A stretch of DNA of 64,000 bases. Origin: a virus. The notes beneath the pieces are model-generated. The model searched no databases. It was not told the DNA's origin and was given only the letters and a program-made list of their open reading frames with translations. The stretch covers positions 20,898 to 84,897 of the IMG/VR virus record IMGVR_UViG_3300017917_000095, one strand, 5' to 3'. Position 1 is the stretch's first letter, and each line of letters begins with the position of its first letter. A program made the position numbers and the translations under genes. This document shows, piece after piece, positions 33,225 to 60,800 of the stretch.

Positions 33225-33226
33225 TC

Positions 33227-39721: not shown

Positions 39722-41645
39722 GAAGAAAAAGATCAGTTTCGTTAGTCCTAATTTTCAGCAAGGCCCGAAAGAATTAAACGCCTTCTATTTACCATATAGC
39801 ACGGGCGTATTATGGGCATACGTCAATCAATTTCCTATTGTACAAGACAACTATGAATTAGGGGAATTTATTTGGCGCAGAGAAGAAATCAGTGACGTTG
39901 TAGAACAATTAAAAGACAGCGATGTTGTCTGTTTCAGTTGTTATGTATGGAATCGTAGCTATACCAAAGAGCTTGGAAAAGCATTGAAATTAGCTAATCC
40001 AAACGTATTCATGATCGGTGGCGGCCCCGAATTTCCTATTGAAAAAGAAGATATCTTTGAACGTTATAGTTTCCTAGATATCTGTGTTAAGCTTGAGGGT
40101 GAAAAGACTTTCCGTCGCATACTAGAAGAACATGTACAAGAAACACCTGACTATAAATCAATCGCAGGCATGCTATTGAACGAGAACGGCAAGCCTTTTA
40201 ATACAGGTGACACTGTTCGTATTGACGACTTAGACACGATCCCAAGTCCTTATTTGACAGGCGTGTTTGACAAGCTTATGGCTAAGTTCCCCGAGATACG
40301 TTGGAACGGTACACTAGAAACTAACCGTGGTTGCCCTTATGCATGTACATTCTGTGACTGGGGTTCACTAACATATAACAAAGTAAAGATATTCGACCTA
40401 GAACGTGTGTTCGATGAACTAGAATGGATGGGTTCACATAACTTTGACTTTATCAGTATCACAGACGCAAACTTTGGTATCTTTGCCGAACGTGATAGCA
40501 TGATTGCTGATAAGCTTATTGAAGTACAAAAGAAGTATGGTAACCCACGTGCATACACAATCGCATGGGCAAAGAATCAAAAGAAAGAAGTTGTCGATAT
40601 TGTTAAGAAATTGATTTATGAGGGTGGCAGTAAGCTTGGCCTCAACCTATCAGTACAGACAATGGACGAGAACACACTAGAGATTATCAAGCGTAAGAAC
40701 CTAGATACAAACAAAATTGAAGATGTGTTTGCACTATGCGAAGAAAACAATATCCCATTGTACACTGAATTAATTCTAGGGTTGCCGGGTGAGACATTAA
40801 ACAGTTGGAAAGAAAACTTCTCCAGACTCTATAAAGCAGGCAATCACACAGGTATTACTGTATATCAGGCACAATTGCTTGAGAACGCTGAAATGAGTTT
40901 GACACAGCGTAAGATGTATAAGCTAGAAGGTAGTATGGTATATGACTATCTAGCCGGCTCATATAACGAATATAATCTACAAGAGGGTGTTGAGATTGTT
41001 GTTTCAACACGTGACTTGCCACCTGAGAAGATGTTGCAAGCACAATTATACAGTTGGTTTCAGAATACATTCCACATTAATGGAATTACTAATTACATTA
41101 GCCGATTACTATACAAGAAATACGGTGTTGAATACAGAGATTTCTACGATAAGCTTTACACATATGTTGAAAAAGACCCATGGTATAAGTCTGAGATTGA
41201 CAGAATTACCGAACACTATAAACACTGGGGAACACGTGGAAAGATTCATCATGATCTAGTTGAGGGTATGGAGATTCACGGTTGGAACTTGATTCACAGT
41301 ACAATCATTATCCTACAGAGTCAGGCTAAGCATAGTCATACCTTTGAATTGATTGAAGATTTCATGCGTAAAGAATACCCATTGGAAGAGTCATTGCATC
41401 AAGACTTAATGAAGTTACAGCGTAACTATCTAATTGACTATACACAAGCACAAAGCTATCCTAAGACCTTAGAGTTCAAGCATGATATCTTTGGGTATTT
41501 GCAGGACCAGAATGAATTAGAAGTTCCTTCTGTCTATGAATATGAGTTCCCGGAAGATAAAGATATGTCATTGCAAAAGTTCTGTGAACAAATCTTCTTT
41601 GCAAGACGTAGAAACTTCGGTAAAGCCTGGGTCGCTAGAAAATGA
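39714..41645 (+). CDS. B12-type radical SAM protein 1
   Basis: A 643-residue protein with an N-terminal B12-binding-like domain (strands around DVVCFSCYVWN and VFMIGGGPEFP) and a central radical SAM domain with CPYACTFC at C207, C211 and C214. LNLSVQTMDENTLEIIKRKN and ELILGLPGET are typical of the B12-binding radical SAM class (MiaB/BchE-like fold). A DxHxxG B12 ligand motif is not evident, so base-on or no-cobalamin variants are possible. Such enzymes often methylate unreactive carbons. The C-terminal 230 residues show no known domain. Substrate unknown; neighbours suggest a sugar. Confidence 0.75.
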   Translation: MHKKKKISFVSPNFQQGPKELNAFYLPYSTGVLWAYVNQFPIVQDNYELGEFIWRREEISDVVEQLKDSDVVCFSCYVWNRSYTKELGKALKLANPNVFMIGGGPEFPIEKEDIFERYSFLDICVKLEGEKTFRRILEEHVQETPDYKSIAGMLLNENGKPFNTGDTVRIDDLDTIPSPYLTGVFDKLMAKFPEIRWNGTLETNRGCPYACTFCDWGSLTYNKVKIFDLERVFDELEWMGSHNFDFISITDANFGIFAERDSMIADKLIEVQKKYGNPRAYTIAWAKNQKKEVVDIVKKLIYEGGSKLGLNLSVQTMDENTLEIIKRKNLDTNKIEDVFALCEENNIPLYTELILGLPGETLNSWKENFSRLYKAGNHTGITVYQAQLLENAEMSLTQRKMYKLEGSMVYDYLAGSYNEYNLQEGVEIVVSTRDLPPEKMLQAQLYSWFQNTFHINGITNYISRLLYKKYGVEYRDFYDKLYTYVEKDPWYKSEIDRITEHYKHWGTRGKIHHDLVEGMEIHGWNLIHSTIIILQSQAKHSHTFELIEDFMRKEYPLEESLHQDLMKLQRNYLIDYTQAQSYPKTLEFKHDIFGYLQDQNELEVPSVYEYEFPEDKDMSLQKFCEQIFFARRRNFGKAWVARK

Positions 41646-43702: not shown

Positions 43703-44504
43703 GAAATACAAACGCATATTTGCATTTGGGTGTAGTTTCACCCAATATAGATGGCCTACATGGGCAGACTTAATTTCAATGGAGTCACCTGATGCAATCT
43801 ACCGTAATTACGGAATCTCTGGATTAGGCAATCTCGCTATATCCACACGTATTATTGAAGGAAGCAAGCGTTACCAATTCAACAGTGATGACTTGATACT
43901 AGTAATGTGGTCTACATTCTGTAGAGAAGATCGTTGGTTGCGTGGTGGATGGTTTGCTCAAGGTAGTGTTTATAACTCAACATACCCCGACGATTGGGTC
44001 AGAGAATATACTGACCCTACTGGATATCTAATTCGTGACCATGCACTCATCTACTCAACAACAAAGTATTTAAAGAGTCTAAATTGCGATTCGGTTATAT
44101 TAAGAAGCAGTCCCTTTGACTACACGGAAGAAAAACCTGACAATGAAACAAAGCAATTGCATGAGCAATTGTCATTGATATACAAGAATGATTACAATAA
44201 TTTGCCATTGGACTTGTATACTTTTAATGGTAGAAATTGGGGCAATGACAGACAAGAATTTTTAGATGACTATGGTTACCTGGATTCTAATAAAGAACCC
44301 TACATGCGTAAAGATAGTCATCCTTTTTCAGGAACATACGCAAGATACCTAGAGTTTTTAGGTATTAAGCTTAGTGACAATACAAAACAATTCGCAAATG
44401 AATTTGACGAATACATGAAGACAAAACCCAGAACAACTGAGATGATTAAGAAGATAGCATTCTTGCGTCAAAACGTTGATTTAGGAATAAACAGAATTTT
44501 TTGA
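43686..44504 (+). CDS. SGNH-like hydrolase or acyltransferase 2
   Basis: A 272-residue protein with IFAFGCSFTQYRWPTW at the N-terminus, where Ser17 lies in the expected nucleophile block, a YRNYGISGLGNLA block, and SHPFSGTYARYLEFLG near the C-terminus with a candidate catalytic His. It shares the G-C-S-x-T-Q pattern with the gene at 38834 but is otherwise diverged. Its start overlaps the end of the tandem glycosyltransferase gene by 17 bases. Likely an esterase or O-acyltransferase acting on a glycan; not shown directly. Confidence 0.5.
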   Translation: MNLDFKKYKRIFAFGCSFTQYRWPTWADLISMESPDAIYRNYGISGLGNLAISTRIIEGSKRYQFNSDDLILVMWSTFCREDRWLRGGWFAQGSVYNSTYPDDWVREYTDPTGYLIRDHALIYSTTKYLKSLNCDSVILRSSPFDYTEEKPDNETKQLHEQLSLIYKNDYNNLPLDLYTFNGRNWGNDRQEFLDDYGYLDSNKEPYMRKDSHPFSGTYARYLEFLGIKLSDNTKQFANEFDEYMKTKPRTTEMIKKIAFLRQNVDLGINRIF

Positions 44505-44511
44505 GGAACAT

Positions 44512-47500
44512 ATGAAAAAAGTAGCAATGATTGGTGTAGGTAAGTTAGGACAAGACTGTGCAGAAGTAATGTCAGACGCAGGGTATGATGTAGTGGGCTA
44601 TGATGTAGCACCCCGTAGTCCTGCTTTCCCAATGCGTAACTCAATTGAGGAAGCAGTCAAAGATAGAGACATGATCTTTATCGCAGCTCCAACACCCCAT
44701 GATCCTATCTATGGTGGAGAGACACCAACAAGTCACTTGCCTAACAAGGACTTTGATTATACCATTGTTACTGAAATTCTAAAAGAAGTTAACAAATACG
44801 TTACTAAGAGTCAATTAGTTGTTCTCATCAGCACAGTGCTACCCGGAACAGTTCGCAATATCCTAGAGCCTTGTATCACTAACGCAAGATTCATTTACAA
44901 CCCTTACCTCATAGCTATGGGTACTGTAAAATGGGACATGGTAAATCCAGAAATGGTAATTATCGGTACAGAGGATGGTAGCCTCACTGGTGATGCTAGT
45001 GAACTAATTGACTTCTACAAGACCTTCATGCAGAATAATCCTCGCTATGAAGTTGGTACATGGGACGAAGCAGAATCAATTAAGATTTTCTATAATACGT
45101 TCATCAGTACAAAGCTTGCACTTGTTAACATGATTCAGGACGTTGCTGAGACTAATGGTAATATCAACGTTGATGTAGTTACAAATGCATTGAAGAAATC
45201 AACATATCGCATCATGGGTCCTGCATATATGACAGCAGCTTTCGGCGATGCAGGAGCATGTCACCCACGTGATAACATTGCACTACGATATCTAACAGAT
45301 AGACTAGACTTGGGCTATGACTTGTTTGATGCTATCATGACTGCACGTGAAGTACAAGCAGAGCGTATGGCATTGCGTTGCTTAAAGAACGGACGTAATG
45401 TTACTATCGTTGGTAAAGCATACAAGCCATGCGTTCCATACACAATCGGATCTGCATCTATGTTAGTGGGCTACTATATTGAGAAGCACGGTGGCAACTT
45501 AAACTACTATGATCCTAACACAGGTGATCTAGACTTGCGTGAAGATTGGACTCAAGTCTATCTGATCGGCTATTGGGAAGAGTGGGTCGAGAAGCTAGAG
45601 TTTAAGGATCCGGGCTGTGTAGTTATTGACCCATGGCGCAAGCTTACAAGCAAGCAACATACAGGGGAAATCATTCACTACGGTGATACACGTCCTAAGA
45701 AAACATACAGTGTTCCTGAGTCTACTATACAAACAATGCGTACTCAAGTCTATGAGATGTTCCCTGAACTAAGACAATATGATAGCGACATTCATCTAGT
45801 TGATGCAACTATCAATATGGATACAACATTTGTTATGCGCCCGACTGAGGCAGTCGTCAAAGAATTACTAGAAGCTAAGGCTAATGGGCGTAGTAAGTTT
45901 ATGTTCTTTGCACCCACAGAAGCATTCATGCCACATGTTGTTTCTAAGGTTCAACGTATTGCTAGCATCCTTGATGGAAAGATCGATGAATCTGATATCA
46001 TCGTTGTTACCGGCGTGATTGACGCCGACGAAATCTACGAGCGTCTTTTAAAAAAAAACGGTTGGAACAAGCGTCTTAACCTCTTAAACTGTCATTTCTT
46101 TAACTACATAACCACTACATATGCCCGTGGATACGAGTATATTGGTGGTTATGATGTACGCTTCCGTGGCAAAATATTCACGTGCTTTAATAAACTGAAC
46201 CGCGAACATCGTCTAGTGATGCTAGAGCGTATGCTACAAACGGGTATGATTAAGAATGGCTACTATTCATTTGAGGGTGAGGGTAATTTCAAAGATACTA
46301 TTCCATCATTGAGTGATGAAAAATTCCCTGCAATCAAGCACAATCAGGACATGTTCCCGTTGCGTTTGAACATCACACCTGATAGACACAACCCAGTTGA
46401 CATTCAACCCGATGACTTGCATTATTACAAGGACAGCTATTTCTCAATCGTAAGTGAGACATTGTTCTATGATAGCAACAGAGTAGGTCAGGCTCATCGT
46501 CCATTCGTTGAGGACTCATTGTTCTTGACAGAGAAAACATATCGTTGCTTTGCAACACTGCACCCATTCATACTGTTAGCAAGACCCCATTCATTAAAAG
46601 AATTGCGTAAGCAGGGCTTCAAGACCTTTGCACCATTCATCAATGAAGCATACGATGATATCGAGAACGATGACCAACGCTTTGAGGCTATCTTCAAAGA
46701 AATCACTAGACTGAATAACTTTACTGGCGATGATTGGACATTGTTCCAAGAAAAGATTAAGCCTATTGTAGAGTACAACAAAGACTTTTTCCATAGTAAC
46801 AAAGACTTTGCTATCACTAAAGACTATCTAAAGTTCTTTGGTCAATTGCAACCAAGAGCATACGTTGAGCCTGTTAGAATCGAATCAGTCATAGAGGCAG
46901 TTAATGAAGCACCTGTGATTCCTACATATATGCAAACTGAGTCTACTATGGGTGACGAATTGCCTACAATGGAAGATATCAGTGAGAAGCTTGACTGGAG
47001 AAACAGACAGTTAGAATATCCTAATGGTATAACACTTAACTTCCCTTGCCACATTGACGGCGGAGGTGATGATTACAAAGATGAATTGATTGCATTGATC
47101 GAACGTACCGGACAGAAAACTAATTATGAATCAGCACTTGATTGGTGTGCAGGTCACGGTCCGTTTGGCTTTGAATTGCTAGCCAACAACATAGCAGATC
47201 ATGTCACATTCCAAGATTGCTATGTTACCGCAGTCGATTCATGCATCAAAAATGGACAAGAGAATAACATAGGTGATAAGGTTACGGGTTATACTTGTGA
47301 CAAGATATCATTGATTCCCGAATCTGAAAAGTTTGATTTGGTAGTAGCAAACCCTCCCCATAGCAATACACTAGAGAATATCGAACGCAATCAATTCTTT
47401 GCCAATACTGCTAGAATGATTGTAGATGACAATTTTGTTATGCACAAAGAGTTCTTTGCAAATATCCATAAATATCTAACTGATGATGCAGATGTGTATA

Positions 47501-47631
47501 TCACAGCAGGAAACAACCTAGCACCTTTTGCTAACTGGGCTTATGCTGGCGGACTAAAGTTTATGGGCTATAGCCCATGCTCGGCAGCACAAGGTGGCAT
47601 CTATCACTTCCGAAAAATTAATCCAAACTGA
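44512..47631 (+). CDS. Fusion: nucleotide-sugar dehydrogenase, TEKT domain, methyltransferase
   Basis: A 1039-residue three-part protein. Residues 1 to about 390 are a UDP-glucose/GDP-mannose 6-dehydrogenase-type enzyme: GVGKLG at 8-13, ESIKIFYNTF around K191, Cys250 in GACHPRDN as the catalytic thiol, and GKAYKPCVPYTIGSAS. Residues about 430-830 hold a TEKT-type glycosyltransferase-like domain (VSETLFYDSN near 648, T673-E-K-T676, GFKTFAPFINEAYDDIEN). Residues about 870-1039 are a class I methyltransferase: ALDWCAGHGPFGFELL, then VVANPPHSN near 946, the NPP motif of N- or O-methyltransferases. I infer oxidation of a sugar nucleotide, glycosyl transfer and methylation held in one chain. The spacing to neighbours is 7 and 49 bases. 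Confidence 0.75.
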   Translation: MKKVAMIGVGKLGQDCAEVMSDAGYDVVGYDVAPRSPAFPMRNSIEEAVKDRDMIFIAAPTPHDPIYGGETPTSHLPNKDFDYTIVTEILKEVNKYVTKSQLVVLISTVLPGTVRNILEPCITNARFIYNPYLIAMGTVKWDMVNPEMVIIGTEDGSLTGDASELIDFYKTFMQNNPRYEVGTWDEAESIKIFYNTFISTKLALVNMIQDVAETNGNINVDVVTNALKKSTYRIMGPAYMTAAFGDAGACHPRDNIALRYLTDRLDLGYDLFDAIMTAREVQAERMALRCLKNGRNVTIVGKAYKPCVPYTIGSASMLVGYYIEKHGGNLNYYDPNTGDLDLREDWTQVYLIGYWEEWVEKLEFKDPGCVVIDPWRKLTSKQHTGEIIHYGDTRPKKTYSVPESTIQTMRTQVYEMFPELRQYDSDIHLVDATINMDTTFVMRPTEAVVKELLEAKANGRSKFMFFAPTEAFMPHVVSKVQRIASILDGKIDESDIIVVTGVIDADEIYERLLKKNGWNKRLNLLNCHFFNYITTTYARGYEYIGGYDVRFRGKIFTCFNKLNREHRLVMLERMLQTGMIKNGYYSFEGEGNFKDTIPSLSDEKFPAIKHNQDMFPLRLNITPDRHNPVDIQPDDLHYYKDSYFSIVSETLFYDSNRVGQAHRPFVEDSLFLTEKTYRCFATLHPFILLARPHSLKELRKQGFKTFAPFINEAYDDIENDDQRFEAIFKEITRLNNFTGDDWTLFQEKIKPIVEYNKDFFHSNKDFAITKDYLKFFGQLQPRAYVEPVRIESVIEAVNEAPVIPTYMQTESTMGDELPTMEDISEKLDWRNRQLEYPNGITLNFPCHIDGGGDDYKDELIALIERTGQKTNYESALDWCAGHGPFGFELLANNIADHVTFQDCYVTAVDSCIKNGQENNIGDKVTGYTCDKISLIPESEKFDLVVANPPHSNTLENIERNQFFANTARMIVDDNFVMHKEFFANIHKYLTDDADVYITAGNNLAPFANWAYAGGLKFMGYSPCSAAQGGIYHFRKINPN

Positions 47632-47680: not shown

Positions 47681-49945
47681 TTGGATTTCACGTTAAGATC
47701 ATTGGCTGTTGATGAACTCAAGCCCAAGGAACGCCCTACAGAGGATATCGCAGATGCACGCCATCGTAGTATGATGGAAGCTATTGCGCCTTATGCTAAA
47801 ACAACAGTACAAAAGAACTTGACCCCTGTGTACGTTGACTACAAGACACGCAACACTAAGCTAGTATTGGTACTCTGCCCAGAGTGGAGTCCATATATGC
47901 CCCCATTCAGTTTAGCAAGACTCTCGGGTGTTGCTAAGAGTGCAGGATATGAGACAAACATCATGGACTTGAATGTGAAAGCATACAACAAGTTCAAGAA
48001 TGACTGGTGGCCCAAGCAACGCATACCATTCAGACTATGGGATCCTAGTAGCTCATGGCATTGGTTGGGTGATACGTACTTGAACGACATTCACCCGTTG
48101 TTAGGCCCTGAGATTCTAGGTCCAGCAGTAGATGAAATCATTGCTATGAACCCTGACGTTGTAGGCTTCAGTGTTTACTATATCAGTGAAGAACCTACTA
48201 AGTGGATGTGTCAAGAGATTAAGCGCCGTGCACCTCACATCAAGATTGCAGTCGGTGGCCCTAACGTACACAAGAGTTGGTTCGCAACACACCCATACTA
48301 TGACTATGTTGTTGTAGGTGAAGGTGAACAGAACTTGCTAGTTATGCTAGACGAGATTGAGGAGAAGAAAGAAGTAGAGTATCCTCGCTATCTTACTCAA
48401 CCCGAAGATCAGCGTATCAACATTAACGGCTTACCCATGCCTGACTATGAATCAATCGATTTCAGTCAGTATGAATTGCCCAATGGTGTGAACAGCGAGA
48501 TTAGTCGAGGCTGCACAGCTAAGTGTACATTCTGTGAAGAAACACACTTTTGGAAGTATCGTCAACGTCAAAGTGTTGACTTGATTACAGAGATTGAATG
48601 GTTGTACTACAACAAAGGTACAGACATTATTTGGTTCATTGATAGTCTTATCAATGGCAACCCCAAAGAACTACGTGCGTTTGCATTAGCTCTTAAAGAG
48701 AAAGACTTGAAGGTTAAGTGGACTGGTTATGCTCGTTGTGACGGTCGTATGGACTATGAGTATCTCAAAGACTTAGCAGACGGTGGCTGTATCATGTTCA
48801 ACTTTGGTGTTGAGTCCGGTAGTCAAAAAGTCCTAGACGATATGGCTAAGGGTGTTACTATCAAAGAGATGGAACAGAACTTTATCGACTGTAAGAAAGT
48901 TGGTATATGGGCTGCTACTAACTGGATTGTCGGCTTCCCCACAGAAGAATGGCAAGACTATGCAGACACGATGACGTTCTTGTGGCGTATGCGTAATAAC
49001 AACATCAACAACGCAGGTCTAGGTGTTGGTTATGGTATGGGCCCTGAGACTATTGTAGGTCAGAACCCGCACAAGTTTAATATCAGTTGGCACAAGTATC
49101 AAGGTCACTGGATACGTAATGACTTTACATTCGGTGGCACACACTTAATGATTCGTGTAAAGACATGGCACATGTTTGCTGACTTCTTGCGTGGCGTTAC
49201 AGAAGTACCGATCAGCTATCCTATTCGTACTGCATTAGAGAAAGATCACTATAGGATCAAACTCAATCACGATACTGTGGCAAAGGACGTTGAGTATGAG
49301 AAGTTTGATTATAATATCATTAAGCCCAATCTTAATCCTTTTGCTGATTCACTTGTTAACGAGATGTGGCCTTTTCTGAGGATGCTATGGAAGTGTCGCG
49401 GTGGTTACGAAGCTGAGATACATTTCAATCCTGAGATTGATTTGAAAGAGTTTGGTACACAGTTTGGTCCCGGTATGTTCAATGCTGTATACAAGTTTAA
49501 GATCAGCGATAGCGGTAAGTGGGAAGCAGACTTTGATATGAAGTTTGAGCAGATCGATAACCCATACGATGATCGTGAGCCTCCCCCGGCAGGACGCAAA
49601 GGTCCGTTCTATGCACAAGATTATTCACGCATGATGAGTAACACTGCATTACGTGCCCGTAAGTTAGCAAAGCCTACATGGGATACAACTGAAGGTCGTG
49701 ATGGTCAAGACTTTACTGACCTATTGAATGAAGAAGCAGAACTAAACAAGACAATTGATTTTAGTTTTGATTATCGTTACATTGGCTATGGTAACTGGGG
49801 TGACTATCAAGACTATGAAGTTGCAGTGTCTGATACTTCACGTGAAGTTATCCCTGAGAAGGAAGCAATGAGTGCGTTAGACTTTGCAAAGCAAGTACAG
49901 ACAATCAGTATTGATTCTATCAAACGTAAGAAAGATGTTGAATGA
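47681..49945 (+). CDS. B12-type radical SAM protein 2, TTG start
   Basis: A 754-residue protein that opens with a stretch containing KPKERPTEDIADARHR, then a B12-binding-like domain (VVGFSVYYISEEPTK, IAVGGPNVHKSW, YDYVVVGEGEQNL), then a radical SAM domain with CTAKCTFC at C278, C282 and C285, and GVESGSQKVLDDMAKGV and WIVGFPTEEW. The last ~250 residues are a long unknown domain. The best start is TTG at 47681 behind AGGAG; no suitable ATG precedes the conserved part. Its N-terminal PKERP-ADAR motif recurs in the 2313-residue protein. Probably a methylating or rearranging enzyme acting on a sugar or lipid; inference. Confidence 0.75.
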   Translation: MDFTLRSLAVDELKPKERPTEDIADARHRSMMEAIAPYAKTTVQKNLTPVYVDYKTRNTKLVLVLCPEWSPYMPPFSLARLSGVAKSAGYETNIMDLNVKAYNKFKNDWWPKQRIPFRLWDPSSSWHWLGDTYLNDIHPLLGPEILGPAVDEIIAMNPDVVGFSVYYISEEPTKWMCQEIKRRAPHIKIAVGGPNVHKSWFATHPYYDYVVVGEGEQNLLVMLDEIEEKKEVEYPRYLTQPEDQRININGLPMPDYESIDFSQYELPNGVNSEISRGCTAKCTFCEETHFWKYRQRQSVDLITEIEWLYYNKGTDIIWFIDSLINGNPKELRAFALALKEKDLKVKWTGYARCDGRMDYEYLKDLADGGCIMFNFGVESGSQKVLDDMAKGVTIKEMEQNFIDCKKVGIWAATNWIVGFPTEEWQDYADTMTFLWRMRNNNINNAGLGVGYGMGPETIVGQNPHKFNISWHKYQGHWIRNDFTFGGTHLMIRVKTWHMFADFLRGVTEVPISYPIRTALEKDHYRIKLNHDTVAKDVEYEKFDYNIIKPNLNPFADSLVNEMWPFLRMLWKCRGGYEAEIHFNPEIDLKEFGTQFGPGMFNAVYKFKISDSGKWEADFDMKFEQIDNPYDDREPPPAGRKGPFYAQDYSRMMSNTALRARKLAKPTWDTTEGRDGQDFTDLLNEEAELNKTIDFSFDYRYIGYGNWGDYQDYEVAVSDTSREVIPEKEAMSALDFAKQVQTISIDSIKRKKDVE

Positions 49946-50544
49946 AAGAAGTCCGTGAATTTGAAGAACTGATTGCTGACTTCTATGGTGCTCCGTATGC
50001 TATCGCTACTGATTGTTGTACTCATGCACTTGAACTATGCCTACGCTTGAATCCTCCAGTCACTACTACAGCCCCGCACCATACATATCTCAGCGTGCCT
50101 ATGACATTAGAGAAGCTAGGACTAGATTGGAAATTCTACAATGCTCAGTGGAAAGACTATTACTATCTAGGCAACACAAACATCATTGACGCCGCAGTAT
50201 ACTGGAAGAAGAATGGTTACATACCCAACACGTTTATGTGTCTAAGCTTTCAGTATCGCAAGCATTTGAACGTGGGTCGCGGCGGCATGATTCTAACTGA
50301 TAACAAAGAGGCTGCACTCAAGCTAAAGAAAATGAGTTATGATGGTCGTGTGCCTGATGTACTCTGGGCTGAACAAGATGTAGATATGTTGGGTTACCAT
50401 TACTACATGACCCCAGAGGCAGCGCAACTAGGCATACAACGGTTCCATGAAATAAAAGACGCACAGCCTAAACGCTGGACATTTAATGATTATCCAGATA
50501 TCAGTAATATGAAAGTTTTTAATGAACAAGATTCAAGTAAGTAA
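49942..50544 (+). CDS. Short DegT/StrS-type sugar aminotransferase
   Basis: PLP-dependent aminotransferase of the DegT/DnrJ/EryC1/StrS type, which puts an amino group on keto-sugars. Visible parts are the FYGAPYAIATDCCTHALEL start, D83 in NIIDAA, K107 in SFQYRKHLNVGRGG as the PLP lysine, and GGMILTDNKEAALKLKK. At 200 residues it is about half the usual ~370, missing most of the C-terminal domain and with a shortened core. Family members need a dimer, so this short form may pair with another subunit or be inactive. It overlaps both neighbours, so it is expressed with them. Confidence 0.65.
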   Translation: MKEVREFEELIADFYGAPYAIATDCCTHALELCLRLNPPVTTTAPHHTYLSVPMTLEKLGLDWKFYNAQWKDYYYLGNTNIIDAAVYWKKNGYIPNTFMCLSFQYRKHLNVGRGGMILTDNKEAALKLKKMSYDGRVPDVLWAEQDVDMLGYHYYMTPEAAQLGIQRFHEIKDAQPKRWTFNDYPDISNMKVFNEQDSSK

Positions 50545-51496
50545 GAACGAGTGGGATCCACTAAAGAAAGTAATTGTGGGTCTAGCAGACTTTGCACGTA
50601 TTCCTGATATGGACAAGAGTTTGCGTACTGTAAACTACAGCCATGTCAAAGATGATAGCGAACTACCCAAAGGTACATTGTACCCTGTACAAGTTATACA
50701 AGAAGCTAATGAAGACCTAGATAGACTATCAAGCGAACTAACTAAATTGGGCATTGAAGTCGTGCGCCCAATGAATCGCCCCACTGATTACTACAACTAT
50801 TGTCCACGTGACTTGGCAACAATTATTGACACGAAGGCAATTGTTGCTCCTATGAGTTTGCAATCTCGTAAGGATGATTACAAAAACATAGAGTCAGAAT
50901 TAAAGAACATCTATTATGTACCCAACGATCAGGGTGATAACAACTATAACTTAGGTAGCATTGGTAACAAAGACGTTCTAGCATTGAATGAGTTCTATCC
51001 AAAGTTTGATGCTGCTAACTTGATTCGTGCTAACGATGATATCTTATATCTTGTGAGCAATTCGGGTAATAAGAAAGGTGCATATTATTTGCAAGAGTTG
51101 CTAGGTAGTAAATACAAAGTACATATGCTTGAAGGTGTTTACAGCTACATGCATATTGATAGTACCGTAGCATTTTTGCGTGAGGGTTTGATGTTGTTGA
51201 ATCCTTCGAGGATTCCAGATAAGAGCATATTACCTGCACCCTTTAATACATGGGATGCAATCTATGCTCCTGAACCAGTTGACATTGGGTACATGGGTTA
51301 CAACAACGCAAGTCCTTGGGTAAGCATTAATCTACTGTCTATCAATCCTAACTTAGTTGTTATGGAAGAGCGTCAAGAAAACTTGGCAAGAGAATTAGAG
51401 AAGTATGGTATTGAGTCATTGATGTTGCCAATGCGCCATGCTAGAACATTGGGAGGTTGCTTCCATTGTGTTACGTTAGATTTGATAAGAGGTTGA
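50522..51496 (+). CDS. Amidinotransferase (StrB/AGAT family)
   Basis: A 324-residue amidinotransferase, which moves an amidino group from arginine to an amine; StrB does this to aminocyclitols in streptomycin synthesis. The family landmarks are EWDPLKKVIVG at the N-terminus, CPRDLATII, DAANLIRANDDILYL (Asp), YMHIDSTVAFL (His) and GGCFHCVTLDL at the end, whose Cys is the catalytic nucleophile. It starts at ATG 50522, inside the end of the aminotransferase gene, so amino-group formation and guanidino-group addition sit side by side. The acceptor may be the amino sugar made next door. Sure of family, not of acceptor. Confidence 0.8.
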   Translation: MNKIQVSKNEWDPLKKVIVGLADFARIPDMDKSLRTVNYSHVKDDSELPKGTLYPVQVIQEANEDLDRLSSELTKLGIEVVRPMNRPTDYYNYCPRDLATIIDTKAIVAPMSLQSRKDDYKNIESELKNIYYVPNDQGDNNYNLGSIGNKDVLALNEFYPKFDAANLIRANDDILYLVSNSGNKKGAYYLQELLGSKYKVHMLEGVYSYMHIDSTVAFLREGLMLLNPSRIPDKSILPAPFNTWDAIYAPEPVDIGYMGYNNASPWVSINLLSINPNLVVMEERQENLARELEKYGIESLMLPMRHARTLGGCFHCVTLDLIRG

Positions 51497-51498
51497 GA

Positions 51499-53277
51499 AT
51501 GGCAGAAAAATGGATGCGTGGTCATGTTAGTAGATTCTGGGATCATGAAGATTACAAGAAGTTTGATTATGTAAAACAACCATTGATGGATTCAGAGATT
51601 GCTACATGGAAATCTCAAGGATACGATTACGTAAAAAGCTTTAGTGGTTCTATGTATGACAATAGAAACCCTATGCCAGAGTGGGTAAAGCGTTTTGATA
51701 AAATCTTCAACCTAAAGAACATGACCTATAATTTCTACAAGATGCAACAGTTAGAAATTATGCCAGAGCACGTAGATCACTTCCAGACATACATGAAGAT
51801 GTTTGATGCGAAGTATCAAAACGTCACTAGGATTCTAGTGATGTTGGAAGACTGGAAGCCCGGTCACTACTTAGAAATTGATGGAGTCGGTGTAGTTAAT
51901 TGGGTAGCAGGTGATTACTTCATGTGGGAAAGTGATGTTCCCCATGCTGCTGCCAACATCGGTACGGAAGATCGCTACACTTTGCAGATCACCGGTACTG
52001 TATTCAAGACAGAAGATGTATACAAGTACATACACTGGTACAACATTCCAGGGCTAGAGACAAAGAAAGAATCGTTGTTCTCACCTGAAATGGATTTCAT
52101 GTATAAGCACATGAGAAAAGAAACTCCATACTACATCTACATGTACAACAGAGAGATTGCAGAGTTAGAAACGATGAAGCATGATCCTGAAGTAGTGGAT
52201 CACTTGAACAAAACAGGTGTGGATATCTATCTGAACGAACCACTATGTTCATATCGTTTGGGTGATAAGCATGGCCCTGATGGTGGTGTTCACTCGTTGA
52301 TTTTTTACAGTGAATTCACCGATGACCAAGTTCAAGATACTCGTTTACTGAGGTCGGTCGAACTGGATAGCATAGAAAAATATGTAACAAATAACAATCT
52401 TACTAATGTCACGGTAAGAACGTGTGACTACAACATTGAGCGTTTCTATACACACTATCTTCCAAAGATGAAATTAGTAACCGACGACCTTTTCTTGAAG
52501 TATTTTGACCTCAATGAATTCGAGCCTCTCACAGAAGAGGAAGAAGACCTCAGTCATTTTACACGCAGATTTGTGTGCATGAATTGGAGATATGCACCGC
52601 ACCGTTTGATAACTGCTGCATATCTAGCCAATAAGATAGACACAGTTAACCTCACATGGTATTTCAAGTCTGATATGGGAACAGTTAGCAAAGAGCCATG
52701 GTACAGCTTCCATGAATGGATTAAGAAAAATCCATCAGCATTCTCTAAGATGATAACAGGTATCAACAAATTGAACAGTGGTTCTCCTTGGAACTTAGAC
52801 CTAGCAGTCAAAGAAGCAACATTAATAGATCAATCTTATTATAAGCGTATGTTCCCTGCAGGGGTTATATTTGACCAAAAAACTACTAAGTTTGGTGACA
52901 ATAAAGATAGACTGAAATATCTCTATCATGATTCCTTCTGTGATGTTGTTACTGAATCGCGTTTTGCACAACCAACTGCAAACTACAGCGAGAAAGTGTA
53001 TCGTCCGATGTATTACAAGAAGCCATTCATTATGGTTGGGCCCCCTCATACACTTGAACACATGAGAGAGCAAGGATTTATGACCTTCAATGACTTCTGG
53101 GATGAATCATATGATTATATCGAAGACCATGAAGAAAGAATGTTTGCAATCTTTAAAGTCATTGATAAGATCAACTCTATGCCTATTCCAGAGTTACAGA
53201 AGATGTACGCTCAGATGAAACACATCGTGGATCATAACAGAAGAACATTGTTAAAAAAATGCCCTAGCAGGTACTAA
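51499..53277 (+). CDS. Fusion: 2OG-Fe(II) oxygenase and SEK-type glycosyltransferase-like domain
   Basis: A 592-residue two-domain protein (ATG 51499 behind an AAGAGG site). The N-terminal ~200 residues look like an Fe(II)/2-oxoglutarate oxygenase: H91-x-D93 in EHVDHF, H149 in DVPHAAANIG, and an Arg near 159 in DRYTLQITG, with GHYLEIDGVGVVNWVAGD between. From about residue 340 comes the recurrent glycosyltransferase-like domain: FVCMNWRYAPHRL, VVTESRF, S497-E-K499, YKKPFIMVGPPHTLEHM, GFMTFNDFWDESYDYIED. I infer hydroxylation and transfer on the same glycan. A variant of the usual EKT motif (EKV) is present. Confidence 0.65.
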   Translation: MAEKWMRGHVSRFWDHEDYKKFDYVKQPLMDSEIATWKSQGYDYVKSFSGSMYDNRNPMPEWVKRFDKIFNLKNMTYNFYKMQQLEIMPEHVDHFQTYMKMFDAKYQNVTRILVMLEDWKPGHYLEIDGVGVVNWVAGDYFMWESDVPHAAANIGTEDRYTLQITGTVFKTEDVYKYIHWYNIPGLETKKESLFSPEMDFMYKHMRKETPYYIYMYNREIAELETMKHDPEVVDHLNKTGVDIYLNEPLCSYRLGDKHGPDGGVHSLIFYSEFTDDQVQDTRLLRSVELDSIEKYVTNNNLTNVTVRTCDYNIERFYTHYLPKMKLVTDDLFLKYFDLNEFEPLTEEEEDLSHFTRRFVCMNWRYAPHRLITAAYLANKIDTVNLTWYFKSDMGTVSKEPWYSFHEWIKKNPSAFSKMITGINKLNSGSPWNLDLAVKEATLIDQSYYKRMFPAGVIFDQKTTKFGDNKDRLKYLYHDSFCDVVTESRFAQPTANYSEKVYRPMYYKKPFIMVGPPHTLEHMREQGFMTFNDFWDESYDYIEDHEERMFAIFKVIDKINSMPIPELQKMYAQMKHIVDHNRRTLLKKCPSRY

Positions 53278-53279
53278 GT

Positions 53280-53287
53280 TATAAATA
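53280..53287 (+). promoter_or_regulatory. Perfect T4-type late promoter TATAAATA
   Basis: The only exact TATAAATA that I recognise as a promoter candidate in a gap of this window lies 22 bases before the ATG of the 32-residue ORF, right after the oxygenase gene stop. It continues as TAAATACTT, like other late-type sites here. Confidence 0.7.
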
Positions 53288-53309
53288 CTTAGGACTTAAA
53301 GGGCAAAAC

Positions 53310-53408
53310 ATGTTCATCATCAAATTTTTCAAGAACTTAATCAAAGAGTACAAGTACCGCAAACGCATCAAAGAACTACGTAAACGTGATCCATTCATCT
53401 ATAAGTGA
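53310..53408 (+). CDS. Small basic 32-aa peptide
   Basis: A 32-residue frame between the oxygenase fusion gene and the carbamoyltransferase gene, under the perfect late promoter. Twelve of 32 residues are Lys or Arg against three acidic, with hydrophobic Ile/Phe/Leu spaced between; ends are MFIIKFFKNL and KRDPFIYK. The pattern could form an amphipathic basic helix, suited to binding nucleic acid, a membrane or an acidic partner. It could also be a substrate for the radical SAM enzymes. No Shine-Dalgarno site is obvious (GGGCAAAAC before ATG). It is too short for a family call, but the promoter and codon use support it as a real gene. Confidence 0.55.
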   Translation: MFIIKFFKNLIKEYKYRKRIKELRKRDPFIYK

Positions 53409-53413
53409 GTCGA

Positions 53414-54892
53414 ATGAACTACGTAGGAATCAGCAACGGTTTCCACGACGCCGGCATCTCAGTCGTGGACTCAAACGGTGACATTCTATTTGCTGGGCAC
53501 AGCGAAAGATACAGCAAACACAAACATGATAAGGACTTGTGCTTAGGTATAGCACAAGATGCCGCATCGTACATTAAGGGTGAATCAGAGATTCACTACT
53601 ACGAACGCCCATGGATGACTGGTCTAAGACAACTCAGAGCAGGCCAGCCTATCAATTTTGCTACAGCTAAAATGCGTATCGGTAAGAATGTTCTAAAAGT
53701 ATTCGGCAATCCAAACGTTACTACACATGAGCATCACCTAAGCCATGTAGCCGCCGGATTTCAAACAAGCCCATACAACGATGCAACTGTGGTAATCATT
53801 GACGCTATCGGTGAGTTTGATTGCATCTCAGTTTGGGATGCATGGTACGATGACAAGGGTTATGCACAATACAAGAAGCTGTGGAGTAAGAAGTATCCGC
53901 ACAGTATTGGTTTGTACTACAGTGCAATGACACAACGAGTGGGACTAAAGCCATTAGATGAAGAATACATTTTAATGGGCATGGCTGCTTATGGCAAGCC
54001 TATACACTTCAATCAGATTGAAGGTCAATTGTTAGAGAATAGCACAACACTAGACTTCAAAGAGAATCTACACATCGGTGTACCTGAAGGCTTTTTAGAA
54101 GGCGCCGATGAAATGGATATTGCCGCTAGCGCACAGGCACTAGTAGAATATCTAATCAAAGCTGTAATGAGCAAAGCACGTATGTTGGGCAAGAGTCGCA
54201 ACCTTGTATATGGTGGTGGTGTTGCTTTGAACTGTCTTGCTAATCGTGAGTTGGGCAAGTACTTTAATGATATGTGGATTGTGCCTAATCCAGGTGATTG
54301 TGGTTCTAGCTTAGGTGCAGCCGCATTAGGATACGGTAAAAGATTGAACTGGAAGGATGCCTTCTTAGGGCATAACATCCCCGGTGATTATCCCAGTAAT
54401 CGTATCATTGACGAGCTAGTTAAGAATAAAATAGTAGGTGTGGCCTCAGGTCGTGCAGAGTTCGGTCCACGTGCGTTGGGCAATAGATCATTGCTTGCAG
54501 ACCCCAGAGGTGATACAATCAAGGATAAAGTAAATGAAATCAAACGCAGACAAAAATTCAGACCCTTTGCGCCCGTTATTTTGGAGGAGCTGGCTCATCA
54601 CTACTTTGATATGCCTAGCAATTGGGATAACAGTCGGTATATGCAAGTCATCGCTCGTTGCAGGTATCCTGAGTTATTTCCTGCTATCGTCCACGCTGAT
54701 GGCACTAGTCGTGTACAGACTGTTCCGAAAGATGGTAGTGGAATTAGAGAACTCCTCGAAAAGTGGTACGTCTTAACTGAATGCCCGATACTGTTAAACA
54801 CCTCTCTCAATATCAGAGGGGAGCCAATGGTCAATGATAGATTCGATGCTGATAGATTCGAAAACCTATACAATGTAAAAGTGATATCGTAA
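53414..54892 (+). CDS. Carbamoyltransferase (NodU/CmcH/TobZ family)
   Basis: O-carbamoyltransferase of the NodU/CmcH/TobZ type, which transfers a carbamoyl group from carbamoyl phosphate via carbamoyl-AMP onto a hydroxyl of a sugar or antibiotic. It starts YVGISNGFHDAGISVVD (ATG 53414; a GTG nine bases earlier overlaps the peptide's stop and is an alternative). The metal-binding block HEHHLSHVAAGF is at residues 105-116, GMAAYGKP follows, and the C-terminal YrdC-like end has FGPRALGNRSLLADPR near 350 and FRPFAPVI. At about 492 residues it is a little shorter than NodU. It stands one base before the repeat-protein gene, whose product may be its partner or target. Confidence 0.85.
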   Translation: MNYVGISNGFHDAGISVVDSNGDILFAGHSERYSKHKHDKDLCLGIAQDAASYIKGESEIHYYERPWMTGLRQLRAGQPINFATAKMRIGKNVLKVFGNPNVTTHEHHLSHVAAGFQTSPYNDATVVIIDAIGEFDCISVWDAWYDDKGYAQYKKLWSKKYPHSIGLYYSAMTQRVGLKPLDEEYILMGMAAYGKPIHFNQIEGQLLENSTTLDFKENLHIGVPEGFLEGADEMDIAASAQALVEYLIKAVMSKARMLGKSRNLVYGGGVALNCLANRELGKYFNDMWIVPNPGDCGSSLGAAALGYGKRLNWKDAFLGHNIPGDYPSNRIIDELVKNKIVGVASGRAEFGPRALGNRSLLADPRGDTIKDKVNEIKRRQKFRPFAPVILEELAHHYFDMPSNWDNSRYMQVIARCRYPELFPAIVHADGTSRVQTVPKDGSGIRELLEKWYVLTECPILLNTSLNIRGEPMVNDRFDADRFENLYNVKVIS

Positions 54893-57800
54893 ATGTTAAG
54901 AGATGTTTTTTATTACGGAAAGAAACCGAATGTTCACCCTAAGGAGAGACCTGCAAAGAATCTAGCTGATGCTAGAAAGCAAGCTACAACTGAACATTTT
55001 TGGATCATCAACGAATTCTGTGATTATACCAATTTCGACTGGGACTTTGATTTCGAGTTCCTGCCTGACCAAGATGTATGGGCAGAAGATCATAACAACG
55101 TTTGGCCTAGCGTACATCAAAAAGACAGTGGTACTTGGTTGTGCCCTAAAACAAAGAGCGAAGTTATCGTATACCGTGCCGATGTTGATTCGTTGAAGCG
55201 TAAGAACATCATCACTGACAATTGGAAGATGCTAGATCACATTGATACTAGTAAATGGGATTTCAGTTGGCACCCTGATCCAACTGACCCTCCCTTCATT
55301 TACAAGTGGGGTTCGAAGTATGCACCTGTTGAACTAAAGACATGTTTAGAATATCATGTTGAAGGTGCCACTCTTGTCAAATACATGAACACCACTGTGG
55401 ACTTGTTACCCAATTGGGATTGCATTGTTGAGGTACAAAAAGTAGATCACAATCATTGGGATATGAGTTGGAGACCAGATCCTCTCGACCCTCCCTTCAT
55501 CTATGTATGGGGCAACAAGTACATCGATGGTCGTTTACGTGCAACATTAGAGTATCATGTTCCGGAAGCAACAGAAAAGAAATATATGCCTGAGTTAGTG
55601 CCTGTTCAACCTGAATGGGATCGTTGGGTATTCTTGCATGAGATAGATAAAACATCATTTGACTTTACTTGGAGACCGGATCCACGTGAGCCTGATTTCA
55701 TATATGTGTTTGGCAACGATCAATACGATGGCACGGTGATGCCTACGATTGAATATCGTATGCCTGGCGCCACTGTGACGAAGTACAACCTTGACAAGAA
55801 AGCCAAACTAGCCCCTCATCCTGAGAAGTTTCAGCACTTAGAAAAGGCTGATGGAATTGATTACAGTTGGGTGCCTGATCCTACATCACCACCTTACATT
55901 TATGCTTGGGGTAATCAATGGAACAAACCAGAAGATAAGGTTTCTATTCAGTATGTAGTAGAAGGCGCAACTGAATACAAGTACATGGAACAACGTGCTA
56001 AACGTAAACCATGCATGGATAACTGGGAAGTACCAGACAATATCGACACAACAGGATTTGATTTCTCATGGGAACCTAGTCCTGCTGATCCTGCATACAT
56101 CTATGAGTTCGGCACACAGTGGCAAAAGACAGGGGGACCTCGTTACGTAGTACCCGGCGCAACTGAAGTCAAGTATGTAGAATTTCAAAAAGCAAAAGCA
56201 TTAGTCAATCCTGTTGCTAAACAAAAGAACTGGTCTGTTCCTAACAATTTAGATATCACTGGATTCGATTTTAGTTGGCATCCGGATGCAACTAGCCCTC
56301 CCTACATCTATCACTTTGCTACACAATGGGCACTAACCGGCGGCCCCATCTATACATGTGATGGCGCAACAGAAGTCAAGTACTTAGAAGAGCCAAGTGC
56401 AATTGCATTACCCGATAAGACAAATTGGAAGTATGACCCTAAGCTGATTGACGAGAATTCATTTGACTTCTCATGGCACCCATACGTAGAAGATCAACCC
56501 TATGTGTATGTCTTTGGTACACAACATCAAAAAACAGGCGGCCCTGTTTATTACACTCCTGGTGCACTATCAACTAGCCCGGTGAAGTATATCGACACCC
56601 GTATCTTACGTGCAACACGATTGCCCAATCGCAAGAACTTTGCGGTGTTGAACAATTATCAAATTGATAACTTTGATTGGTCATGGCATCCAGACGAGAC
56701 AGAAGAATCGTATGTCTATGTGTTTGGTAACAATCAATACTCGGCTGAAATTATGCCTACGATTGAGTATGCAATGCCCGGCGCAAAGCAAATCAAATAC
56801 ATCAACACAGTAAAAGCCACTCTAGGTGCCGATAGAACTAACTGGGTTATCAACCAGCCTATCAATGAATCTACTTTTGATTTTAGCTGGAAGCCTAATC
56901 CCAAAGACCCTCCATACATCTATCGTTGGGGTAACAAATACATCAGCAACAAATATAAGTCTACTATAGATTACGTAGTTCCTGAAGCTACTGAAATCAA
57001 GTACATGGATGATAATGTTGAAGTGCTACCTCAAATGGATCGTTGGGAGATACCATCAGACGTAAGCACAGATGGGTTCGATTTTAGTTGGAGACCTGAC
57101 CCATTAGAGCCCGACTTGATTTGGCAGTTCGGTACTCAATGGCAGAAGACAGGTGGTCCTCGCTATGTAGTACCTGGCGCAACTGAAATCAAATACGTAG
57201 ATATCAAAGTAACTGCACTACCTCAAAAAGAAAAGTTCACTACGTTACACCCAATTGAAAACTTTGACTGGTCATGGCATCCAGATGACACAGAAGAACC
57301 TTTCATCTATGTGTTTGGCAATAATCAGTACCCAGCAGAGATCATGCCTACTGTTGAATACAGAATGCCCGGAGCAACTCAAGTAAAGTATATCAATGAT
57401 GTTAGTGCCAAGTTAGCAGTTGACATGACTAACTGGTCGATCCCTGATGACCTTGATACCTCTGGCTTTGACTTTAGTTGGAAACCTAACCCTAAAGACC
57501 CTGCTTACAATTATGAGTTCGGCACTCAATGGCAGAAGACAGGCGGCCCTCGATATGTAGTAGAAGGATCAACTGAAACAAAGTATGTTGACATGATGAA
57601 AGCAAAGAAACTCCCTAATAAGAGAAACTTTGCAGTCCTTAATAACTACCAGATCAAAGACTTTGATTGGTCATGGCATCCAGATTCAACAGATGAGCCC
57701 TTCATTTACCAATTCGGTAACAATCAGTATCCTGCTGAGATTATGCCTACTATTGAGTACATGGTTGAGGGTGCAATACAGGTCAAATACGTTCATGAAG

Positions 57801-60800
57801 CTATCGCTACGCTCGATGTAGACATGACAAATTGGGAAGTACCTGAGTCAGTCGATACCACTGGCTTTGATTTCTCATGGAAGCCTAATCCCAAAGATCC
57901 GGCTTACAATTATGAGTTCGGCACTCAATGGCAGAAGACAGGTGGGCCTCGTTACCTTGTAACAGATGCAACAGAAACAAAGTATGTTTCTACACAGAAA
58001 GTAAAAGCATTGCCAGTTAAAACTAACTGGACTATCCCTCCTCACATTGATGTTGCTGGATTCGATTTTAGTTGGCATCCAGATGCAACTAGCCCTCCAT
58101 ACGTCTATCACTTTGCTACGCAGTGGGCATTGAGCGGTGGACCTATCTATCGTGTAGATGGTGCAACAGAGGTCAAGTACATGGATGAACTATGTGCCAC
58201 TGCGTTACCTAATAAAGAAAACTGGGAAGTACCGTCAGATGTCAATGTGTCTGCGTTTGACTTCTCATGGCATCCATACGTTGAAGATCAGCCATATATC
58301 TATCAGTTCGGTACACAACATCAAAAGACAGGTGGACCACGGTACATCACGCCGGGTTCAGTCGCTAGCAGTCCGGTCAAGTATATTGACACACGTATTC
58401 TTAAGGCAGAGAAGTTGCCTAATCGCAAGAACTTCAACATTCTTAATAACTACAAGATCAAAGATTTTGATTGGTCATGGCACCCTGATACAACAGATGA
58501 ACCTTTCATCTATGTGTTCGGTAATAATCAGTATCCTGCTGAGATTATGCCTACCCTAGAGTATGCAATGCCGAATGCCAAAGAGATTAAATATGTTCAC
58601 TCAGTTGTTGCAACATTGTCAAGTGACCGCAACAACTGGGAGATTCCAGACAACATTGATGTAACTGAATTTGATTTCAGTTGGAAGCCTAATCCAAAAG
58701 ACCCACCGTACATCTATCAGTTTGGCACACAGCATCAAAAGACAGGTGGCCCTCGTTATGTTGTGCCTGATGCTACTGAGGTTAAGTACGTTGAAGGTAG
58801 CAAAGCTAAAGCATTGCCTACTACTGCGAACTGGATATTACCCAAAGACTTAGACATTGTAGATTTTGACTACTCATGGCATCCTGATAGTACAGAAGCT
58901 GCGTATGAGTACATCTTCCCCACACAATGGCAGTTGACAGGAGGCCCGCGCTACATGGTGCCAGGCTCACAAGAACTCAAGTTCATGGATGGCCCTGTTG
59001 CTACTGTTGGACCAACAACAAAGAATTGGGAAGTCCCTGCTGATATTGTTCTAAAAGATTTTGACTTTAGCTGGCATCCACACCCAGATGATCCTACGTT
59101 TATCTATGAGTTTGCAACGCAGTGGCATGATCGTGGTGGTCCACGCTATATTGCCCCGGGTGCAAACAAAGATACGCCTGTCAAATATATCGACGGTCGT
59201 ATCATTAAAGCGACACTAGGCCCTAACAAGAACAATTGGGTCGCGGCGCAGAAGATTGACGAAGATAAATTTGACTACAGCTGGGTACCTCACCCTAATG
59301 ACCCGCCTTACATATATCGTTGGGGTAACAAGTTTATTAGCGGAGTGTTCAAGCCTACAATAGAGTACCAAGCACCCGGTGCAACTGAATACAAGTACAT
59401 GGATGACAACGTTGAGGTGCTACCTCAATGGGATCGATGGGAGATTCCTGAAGGTATTGATTCAACTGGATTCGATTTTAGTTGGAGACCTGATCCATTA
59501 GAGCCTGACTTGATTTGGCAGTTCGGTACTCAATGGCAGAAGACAGGTGGCCCTCGCTATGTAGTACCTGGTGCAACTGACATTAAGTATATCGATACGA
59601 TGAAGGTCAGAAGGCTCCCTTCTAAGAAGAATTGGTTCAACCCTCAGCAATCAGATGTAACGTTGTTTGATTATAGCTGGCATCCAGACGATACTAATCC
59701 ACCGTACATTTATCAGTTCGGTACATTAGTAGATATGAACGACGGTCCTAGATACATTACTCCTGACTCTACCGGCAACGTAGTATTTTTACAACGGGTA
59801 GAAGTTGATGAAGCTGTTGAGGTTGATGAAGCTCCTTCAGAGGAAATCATTGAAAAGTATTTCATCGAAACAACGTTAGATGATTTAGTTAAGCAACATC
59901 CTAATCAGGTGTTCTGGGCAATGAATAAGAACATTGACTACAGCAAGTTTGATTTCGAATGGAGACCAGAATCATTGAGAGATATGGAATACGTACAAGT
60001 ATTCGGTTCTCCTGACTCAGCATTGACTCATACTTACTTTGTTAACTCTAAGTCTTATGCCGCAGGCAACAAGGACTTCAAGTTCATTGAGAACGCAAAC
60101 CTAGATGAATCATACTTGTCCAGTTTGTTCATTAAGTCTGACATGTTCTTTGTCGATAAAGGTAACAAAGAATCACAAGCACGTTTCGATGAACTAAAGA
60201 ATTTATTCGGTAACAGAATTCAAAAGACTCGTTACTTGAACAGCTGGGTTGATACAATCAATCGCTGTATCAACCGTAGTACTACTGACCTGTGCTGGAT
60301 ACTAAACAGTGAGTTGGATTATAGTAACTTTAACTTTGAATACTATCCTAACCCTTGGCAGATGAAGATGGTTCACGTGTTTGGTACACAGTGGAGTCAT
60401 TGGGGCACAACATTCATGGTCAATCGTGAAACGTTTGCAGCCGATACCAAGTACATCAAGATCATTGAGCACTTGAGTAACTTGAACTTTGTTAAGGATC
60501 GTATTGCAAATGCAACTAACAGAATCTACGATGTAATCTACATCGATCACGGTAACTTGGCTACAGTACCTGGAACTAGTGTCAAGTATGAAGAAAGCTA
60601 TCTAAAGACTTTCAAGAACATGCTAGCTATCTTGCCCGAGAAGAAAGAACATTACGTATGGGTATGCAGCACAGTATGTGATTACACTGGATTTGACTTC
60701 ACATACATTTGCGATCCGTTTGCACGTGACCAGTTGCATGTATTCCCTAGTGATAAGCAAAAGTTCGGAGACACCTTCTTAGTCAATGTCAATAAACTAC

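Follow-up and report, generated by a model that had tools for sequence, protein, structure and literature searches.

StrB1, the L-arginine:inosamine-phosphate amidinotransferase of streptomycin, the DegT/DnrJ/EryC1/StrS sugar aminotransferases (GDP-perosamine synthase, WbpE, and ArnB), and the class III carbamoyltransferases TobZ, NovN, GdmN, and NodU, together with phage Nol-like carbamoyltransferases, are described relatives of three of the four enzymes encoded side by side in a 64,000-nucleotide stretch of DNA from a large T4-like phage. This stretch, hereafter the window, comprises bases 20898-84897 of IMG/VR virus record IMGVR_UViG_3300017917_000095 (record length 84,897 bases), and the four genes, here called the cassette, encode a half-size DegT-family protein (mini-DegT), a StrB-type amidinotransferase, a 2-oxoglutarate (2OG)-Fe(II) oxygenase fusion, and a carbamoyltransferase. 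A first-pass annotation had read the aminotransferase, amidinotransferase, and carbamoyltransferase, with an oxygenase between them, as matching the decoration logic of aminoglycoside antibiotics and as a possible source of a cationic, modified sugar. That interpretation is partly supported by the analysis presented here. The unit conserved across viral contigs is mini-DegT, oxygenase, and amidinotransferase, often with a UDP-glucose-dehydrogenase-like (UGDH) enzyme, and the carbamoyltransferase is optional.

The window amidinotransferase has the same Asp/His/Cys triad and short acceptor loop as StrB1, whereas no aminocyclitol pathway was found in the phage records searched and the partner aminotransferase of the phage is a half-size DegT protein. 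Mini-DegT shares the pyridoxal 5'-phosphate (PLP) domain fold and the catalytic Lys and Asp with the DegT/DnrJ/EryC1/StrS enzymes; however, its family is about 195 aa long, lacks the C-terminal half and a central segment of DegT proteins, carries GYHYY in place of the common GyNyR motif, and is mainly viral. The carbamoyltransferase has both domains, the metal ligands, and the FGPRALGNRS motif of its class III relatives but sits in a putative guanidino cassette.

Among phage systems, Campylobacter phages CP220 and CPt10 carry an exchangeable module that, like the window, contains several radical S-adenosylmethionine (SAM) genes and an amidinotransferase, in these phages a putative glycine amidinotransferase (PMC2853527). 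However, that amidinotransferase is ~25% identical to the window enzyme, and mini-DegT, UGDH, and carbamoyltransferase are absent from the region viewed. The host recognition cluster of pelagimyophages and cyanomyophages, which is hypervariable, lies beside tail genes, and has been proposed to alter the host O-chain (PMC7029224), resembles the window in its glycosyltransferases, UDP-glucose 6-dehydrogenase, and radical SAM genes, but, unlike the window cassette, it is described without mention of an amidinotransferase or carbamoyltransferase. Phage-encoded carbamoyltransferases of the same family as the window enzyme act on 5-hydroxymethylcytosine (5hmC) and differ in their link to Asp177 (dCMP-type) thymidylate synthase homologs (PMC8670742), which were not found in the window lineage. 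No account of the cassette, of the mini-DegT family, or of a link between amidinotransferase, aminotransferase, and glycan in phages was found in the open-access literature searched, which leaves most subscription papers outside.

Active-site features of the cassette enzymes

The mini-DegT gene (49942-50544, plus strand) encodes a 200-aa PLP protein matching Pfam PF01041 (DegT_DnrJ_EryC1) with E 1e-17. The predicted Schiff-base lysine is K107 (codon 50260) and the aspartate predicted to contact PLP N1 is D83 (codon 50188); both residues, along with D24, T27, H153, and others, are present in 100% of 111 mini-DegT sequences. A Foldseek search with the AlphaFold2 (AF2) model, which has a predicted local distance difference test (pLDDT) score of 95.5, returned GDP-perosamine synthase 3dr4 first (E 3.6e-10; template modeling (TM) score 0.71 by query and 0.40 by target) and gave a probability of 1.00 against sugar aminotransferases. 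As modeled, mini-DegT folds like the PLP domain of these enzymes. The canonical two-domain DegT architecture of about 360-400 aa is not present, and we describe the protein as a distinct half-size DegT relative and not as a canonical member. Its relatives are 194-234 aa long, except for two full-length paralogs. A degenerate or pseudogene DegT had been suspected from the length and was rejected, as viral relatives number over 500 and the ones examined match it in size and have invariant catalytic residues.

Bacterial mini-DegT proteins are rare, with 16 matches among 84,980 species genomes, and none was found on the plasmids scanned. Phage-like or single-cell contigs account for several of the bacterial loci. 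Others, two Neomarinimicrobiota contigs among them, carry a polysaccharide locus with a cupin, a methyltransferase, mini-DegT, and a GDP-mannose-dehydratase-like gene, a setting that suggests a role for mini-DegT in sugar-nucleotide chemistry. In five such polysaccharide-type loci (L171, L173, L174, L180, and L181), the neighbors of mini-DegT are a WbuC-like cupin, a GDP-mannose 4,6-dehydratase-like gene, and a third gene that encodes a methyltransferase or is another small gene.

The predicted StrB-type L-arginine:amine amidinotransferase (50522-51496, plus strand; 324 aa) is encoded by a gene that overlaps the mini-DegT gene by 23 bases. Neither Pfam nor NCBIfam identified this protein as an amidinotransferase, and its assignment was decided by a phmmer search of PDB sequences, in which StrB1 (1bwd) matched with E 1.2e-64 and HsvA (E 1e-37) and AGAT/SxtG (E about 1e-30) followed far behind. 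Residues 8-323 align end to end with residues 7-339 of StrB1. Counted through the alignment, D163/H211/C316 corresponds to D179/H227/C332 of StrB1 and to D254/H303/C407 of AGAT, the catalytic triad reported for the latter (PMC3684758), and the triad motifs are kept in 100 of 106 relatives. By these features the protein is assigned to the StrB/AGAT family, with transfer from arginine to an amine as its predicted reaction.

Downstream, a 592-aa fusion (51499-53277, plus strand) joins an N-terminal 2OG-Fe(II) oxygenase domain (about residues 1-175) to a C-terminal glycosyltransferase-like domain. ATG at 51499 is the likely start, and an alternative TTG at 51457 would overlap the amidinotransferase gene. 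The match to Asp_Arg_Hydrox is weak (E 0.007). The facial triad H91, D93, and H149 and the 2OG-binding R159 are invariant among 56 oxygenase sequences, and the AF2 model (pLDDT 87) has a prolyl-4-hydroxylase (P4H) as its top Foldseek match, with P4H-type folds best in PDB at a TM score of about 0.5. Both motifs and model, the latter with the double-stranded beta-helix typical of the class, identify the N-terminal domain as a predicted 2OG-Fe(II) oxygenase. The oxygenase noted earlier between the amidinotransferase and the carbamoyltransferase is present, but as one domain of a fusion with a glycosyltransferase-like part.

The fourth gene, starting at GTG 53405 or ATG 53414 and ending at 54892 (plus strand), encodes a predicted class III (NodU/CmcH/TobZ-type) O-carbamoyltransferase that matches phrog_1601 (E 3e-90) and Pfam Carbam_trans_N (E 1e-35) and Carbam_trans_C (E 5e-47), with Kae1-like and YrdC-like domains. 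Its PDB matches are the novobiocin carbamoyltransferase, GdmN, and TobZ. The predicted metal ligands H110, H114, D133, and D298 (numbered from GTG 53405) are invariant among 16 phage carbamoyltransferases, and the HxxxH...D spacing equals that of H133/H137/D156 in GdmN (PMC9633730). The sequence features of the class III enzymes are thus present in this protein. Pfam, the PDB phmmer search, and phrog_1601 together uphold the DegT-type, StrB/AGAT, and NodU/CmcH assignments of the first-pass annotation, and a search for loss of active-site residues in close homologs, an outcome that would have counted against that annotation, found them retained (DegT, 111/111; amidinotransferase motifs, 100/106; carbamoyltransferase, 16/16).

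Recurrence of the cassette in viral contigs

Scans of viral contigs identified at least 590 relatives of mini-DegT and at least 528 of the amidinotransferase, and neighbors were counted within the fetched flanks of each locus. Among the best 80 of the at least 528 amidinotransferase loci, mini-DegT was present in 67, the oxygenase in 68, UGDH in 25, and the carbamoyltransferase in 18; the best 80 of the at least 590 mini-DegT loci contained the amidinotransferase in 48 cases and the oxygenase in 47. After removal of duplicates, 119 mini-DegT loci were retained, 87 with the amidinotransferase and 32 without. The former contained the oxygenase in 80 loci, UGDH in 40, a GT25-like glycosyltransferase in 48, the carbamoyltransferase in 23, and GDP-mannose dehydratase in 1. 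The latter contained the oxygenase in 1 locus, UGDH in 8, neither the GT25-like gene nor the carbamoyltransferase in any (0 and 0), GDP-mannose 4,6-dehydratase in 23, and a WbuC-like cupin in 24. None of the 119 loci combined UGDH with GDP-mannose dehydratase. Mini-DegT thus has two alternative partner sets, the amidinotransferase and oxygenase versus GDP-mannose dehydratase and the WbuC cupin, and the recurrence of the cassette genes in many diverged viral contigs exceeds chance.

Gene order varies among these loci. The window order is UGDH, radical SAM, mini-DegT, amidinotransferase, oxygenase, and carbamoyltransferase, and two other loci (L007 and L010) show oxygenase, sulfotransferase, mini-DegT, five glycosyltransferase-like genes, amidinotransferase, and UGDH. 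In the cultured Synechococcus phage (cyanophage) S-SCSM2R, consecutive genes encode mini-DegT, a radical SAM protein, a glycosyltransferase, the oxygenase, and the amidinotransferase. Among UGDH-seeded loci (n = 47), the amidinotransferase was found in 20, the oxygenase in 19, and mini-DegT in only 5; most of the amidinotransferase loci lacking mini-DegT were compact runs of UGDH, oxygenase, and amidinotransferase. Another phage-like lineage (L204-L228; e.g., L206:8001-12683) has a tight UGDH-oxygenase-amidinotransferase run followed by 245-aa and 420-aa proteins, with no mini-DegT.

The carbamoyltransferase is a common gene that occurs mostly independently of the cassette. Within the cassette it is found as two subtypes, the window type with FGPRALGNRS and forms with AGQRALGNRS that are about 29-31% identical to the window enzyme; in about ten loci the AGQRALGNRS form lies one gene downstream of the amidinotransferase. 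The grouping of the aminotransferase, amidinotransferase, and carbamoyltransferase as a unit did not hold, since the near-constant partner is the oxygenase (80/87) and not the carbamoyltransferase (23/87).

Genomic setting

Genes 47681-61834 abut or overlap (by 4 and 23 bases), with one gap of ~130 bases ahead of the carbamoyltransferase, and therefore look like a single operon. All four cassette genes are open, co-directional, and head to tail at the positions first assigned to them, and they sit within a series of sugar and radical SAM genes on one strand (~26.4-62.9 kb) downstream of the tail genes. Further upstream are T4-type genes, including recombination-nuclease, sigma-factor, and baseplate-like open reading frames (ORFs) judged from their translations; the top relatives of the baseplate wedge protein (34% identity) belong to jumbo myophages. 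A single 6529-aa ORF at 3531-23120 encodes a giant tail-region protein with one domain type repeated many times.

The sugar setting proposed for the cassette is borne out by a UGDH-like enzyme, an NAD-epimerase, and glycosyltransferase-like proteins in the window and by the bacterial mini-DegT homologs in polysaccharide loci. The UGDH-like enzyme (44512-47631, plus strand) is a single 1039-aa protein of three domains, UGDH-like, glycosyltransferase-like, and methyltransferase, matching Pfam UDPG_MGDP_dh and phrog_9148 (E 3e-94), with the catalytic Cys250 placed within GACHPRD by motif count. A predicted NAD-dependent sugar epimerase/dehydratase (36781-37758, plus strand) matches Pfam Epimerase (E 1e-45) and, below cut-offs, NCBIfam GDP-fucose synthase/GalE-like models. 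The glycosyltransferase-like C-terminal domain of the oxygenase fusion recurs in five more proteins of the window, the six being those at 35462, 37755, 41642 (where it occurs twice), 44512, 51457, and 61831; where tested, it gave no Pfam or PHROG match. The proteins at 38822-39721 and 43686-44504 start with motifs (GCSWTQGE/GCSFTQ) like those of SGNH hydrolases or acetyltransferases, and profile searches, where tested, returned nothing for them.

Directly upstream of mini-DegT, with a 4-base overlap, lies a gene for a B12-binding radical SAM protein (47681-49945, plus strand; Pfam Radical_SAM E 4e-19, B12-binding E 3e-11), which is 93% identical to its counterpart in the syntenic relative L005. 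Seven radical SAM proteins are encoded at 29357-35475, 39714-41645, and 47681-49945, four of them SPASM/twitch-type (NF033640-like) or related, one short, and two B12-binding (one KedN5-like). Directly 3' of the carbamoyltransferase, an ORF at 54893-61834 (plus strand), also syntenic in L005, encodes a 2313-aa protein with many degenerate tryptophan-rich repeats (FDFSWHPDP..PPYIYxFGTQ..KTGGPRYVVPGATEVKYV), for which searches of Pfam and PHROG gave no match. A PKERPxxxxADAR-like motif is common to the starts of this protein and of the radical SAM protein at 47681.

Proposed function and alternative explanations

On balance we lean toward a sugar-nucleotide tailoring cassette, located in a glycosyltransferase-rich region beside tail genes, that makes a guanidino, and sometimes carbamoylated, sugar. 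In such a pathway, the UGDH-like and epimerase-type enzymes would oxidize or open a sugar nucleotide for amination, mini-DegT would carry out PLP-dependent transamination of the keto position to give an amino sugar, and the StrB-type enzyme would pass the amidino group of arginine, by way of a Cys316-amidino intermediate, to the amine so formed, yielding a guanidino sugar. The 2OG oxygenase would hydroxylate the sugar or its precursor, and the glycosyltransferases would join the guanidino sugar to a glycan. The carbamoyltransferase present in this lineage would cap a hydroxyl through a carbamoyl-adenylate. Fold, active-site conservation, and genomic linkage are shown by the analysis; we infer the substrate, the order of steps, the presence of all groups on one molecule, and the glycan target, which may be the host surface or the virion. 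The product may be a cationic sugar, as first suggested from the sequence. A Wzx flippase (Polysacc_synt, PF01943) was searched for in 10 records and not found, although the host could supply one; export, if any, would therefore depend on host machinery, or the target may be cytoplasmic (e.g., fiber proteins).

Several observations weigh against this reading. The missing C-terminal half of mini-DegT and its GYHYY motif mean that its reaction may differ from that of other DegT enzymes. About 15 of the 47 UGDH-seeded loci have the amidinotransferase, mostly with the oxygenase, but no mini-DegT, and these enzymes can therefore act with another amine source. The amidinotransferase was found in just 6 of 78 carbamoyltransferase-seeded loci and was absent from the remaining 72; as most carbamoyltransferase loci are without other cassette genes, inclusion of the carbamoyltransferase may be incidental. 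The proposed pathway also gives no part to the numerous radical SAM enzymes nearby. Finally, the loci are phylogenetically related and their counts are not independent, so Fisher values overstate significance and it is the pattern that counts.

The carbamoyltransferase may be an independent decoration gene beside a self-contained mini-DegT/oxygenase/amidinotransferase cassette, with no single product bearing an amine, a guanidine, and a carbamoyl group. The 72 of 78 loci without the amidinotransferase and the ~130 bases between the carbamoyltransferase and the fused oxygenase gene speak for such independence, which we regard as a substantial possibility without favoring it. Against it, within the cassette set two divergent subtypes occur only alongside the amidinotransferase (23/87 versus 0/32) and about ten loci have the carbamoyltransferase at a fixed place, one gene downstream. 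It is unlikely, though deserving of attention, that the amidinotransferase and oxygenase make a non-sugar guanidino compound, such as a modified amino acid or polyamine (as for HsvA, AmtA, and CyrA), perhaps on a peptide or fiber protein, with mini-DegT and the carbamoyltransferase serving other sugars of the island. UGDH-oxygenase-amidinotransferase runs do exist without mini-DegT, HsvA is the second-best PDB match, and many of the nearby radical SAM proteins are of the SPASM/twitch class, which often acts on peptides; however, the closest solved relative by a wide margin is StrB1, an enzyme whose substrate is an aminocyclitol phosphate, and most amidinotransferase loci also contain mini-DegT, UGDH, and glycosyltransferases.

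DNA hypermodification, in which the carbamoyltransferase (and perhaps also the amino or guanidino sugar) would decorate hydroxymethylated cytosine, appears improbable to us. Phage carbamoyltransferases of the same family are proven to act on 5hmC (PMC8670742), and T4-like phages glycosylate DNA. Nevertheless, the full-length thymidylate synthase found in each of five close relatives that have longer records carries Asn177 (PFN), the dUMP type, with dihydrofolate reductase upstream in those whose flank was read, and no thymidylate synthase was found in the 85 kb record of the window, which is a fragment. The carbamoyltransferases of unmodified contigs also adjoin glycosyltransferases (PMC8670742), as in the window. 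We give least credence of all to a true aminoglycoside-like small molecule, made by streptidine logic and released. StrB1 is the best relative, and the pairing of a DegT protein with an adjacent StrB enzyme resembles StsC-StrB1, but the setting is rich in glycosyltransferases and mini-DegT is not StsC-sized. Inositol-phosphate synthase (PF07994), MocA-type dehydrogenase (PF01408), and dehydroquinate/deoxy-scyllo-inosose synthase (PF01761) were not found in 11 phage records in which the controls were positive; without a cyclitol-forming enzyme, this is not an aminocyclitol antibiotic pathway, and the aminoglycoside-type pathway of the first-pass annotation falls away.

Implications for phage glycan chemistry

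Extending the guanidino sugar reading to its consequences, we tentatively suggest, as a close call, that this is an undescribed cassette of aquatic phages whose guanidinylated, sometimes carbamoylated, sugar would give the virion or infected cell a cationic glycan and affect adsorption or superinfection, and that mini-DegT is a previously unseen, minimal form of sugar aminotransferase. To judge from the mini-DegT family, enzymes of this kind can function without the C-terminal domain. The three small genes in a cultured Synechococcus phage would then offer a clean genetic handle on the targets of the glycosyltransferase-rich host recognition clusters of T4-like phages. Glycan decoration by phages is usually described in terms of glycosyltransferases and common sugars; if the proposed function is correct, many aquatic phages could make guanidino sugars by means of a widespread module whose antibiotic-tailoring chemistry is intact.

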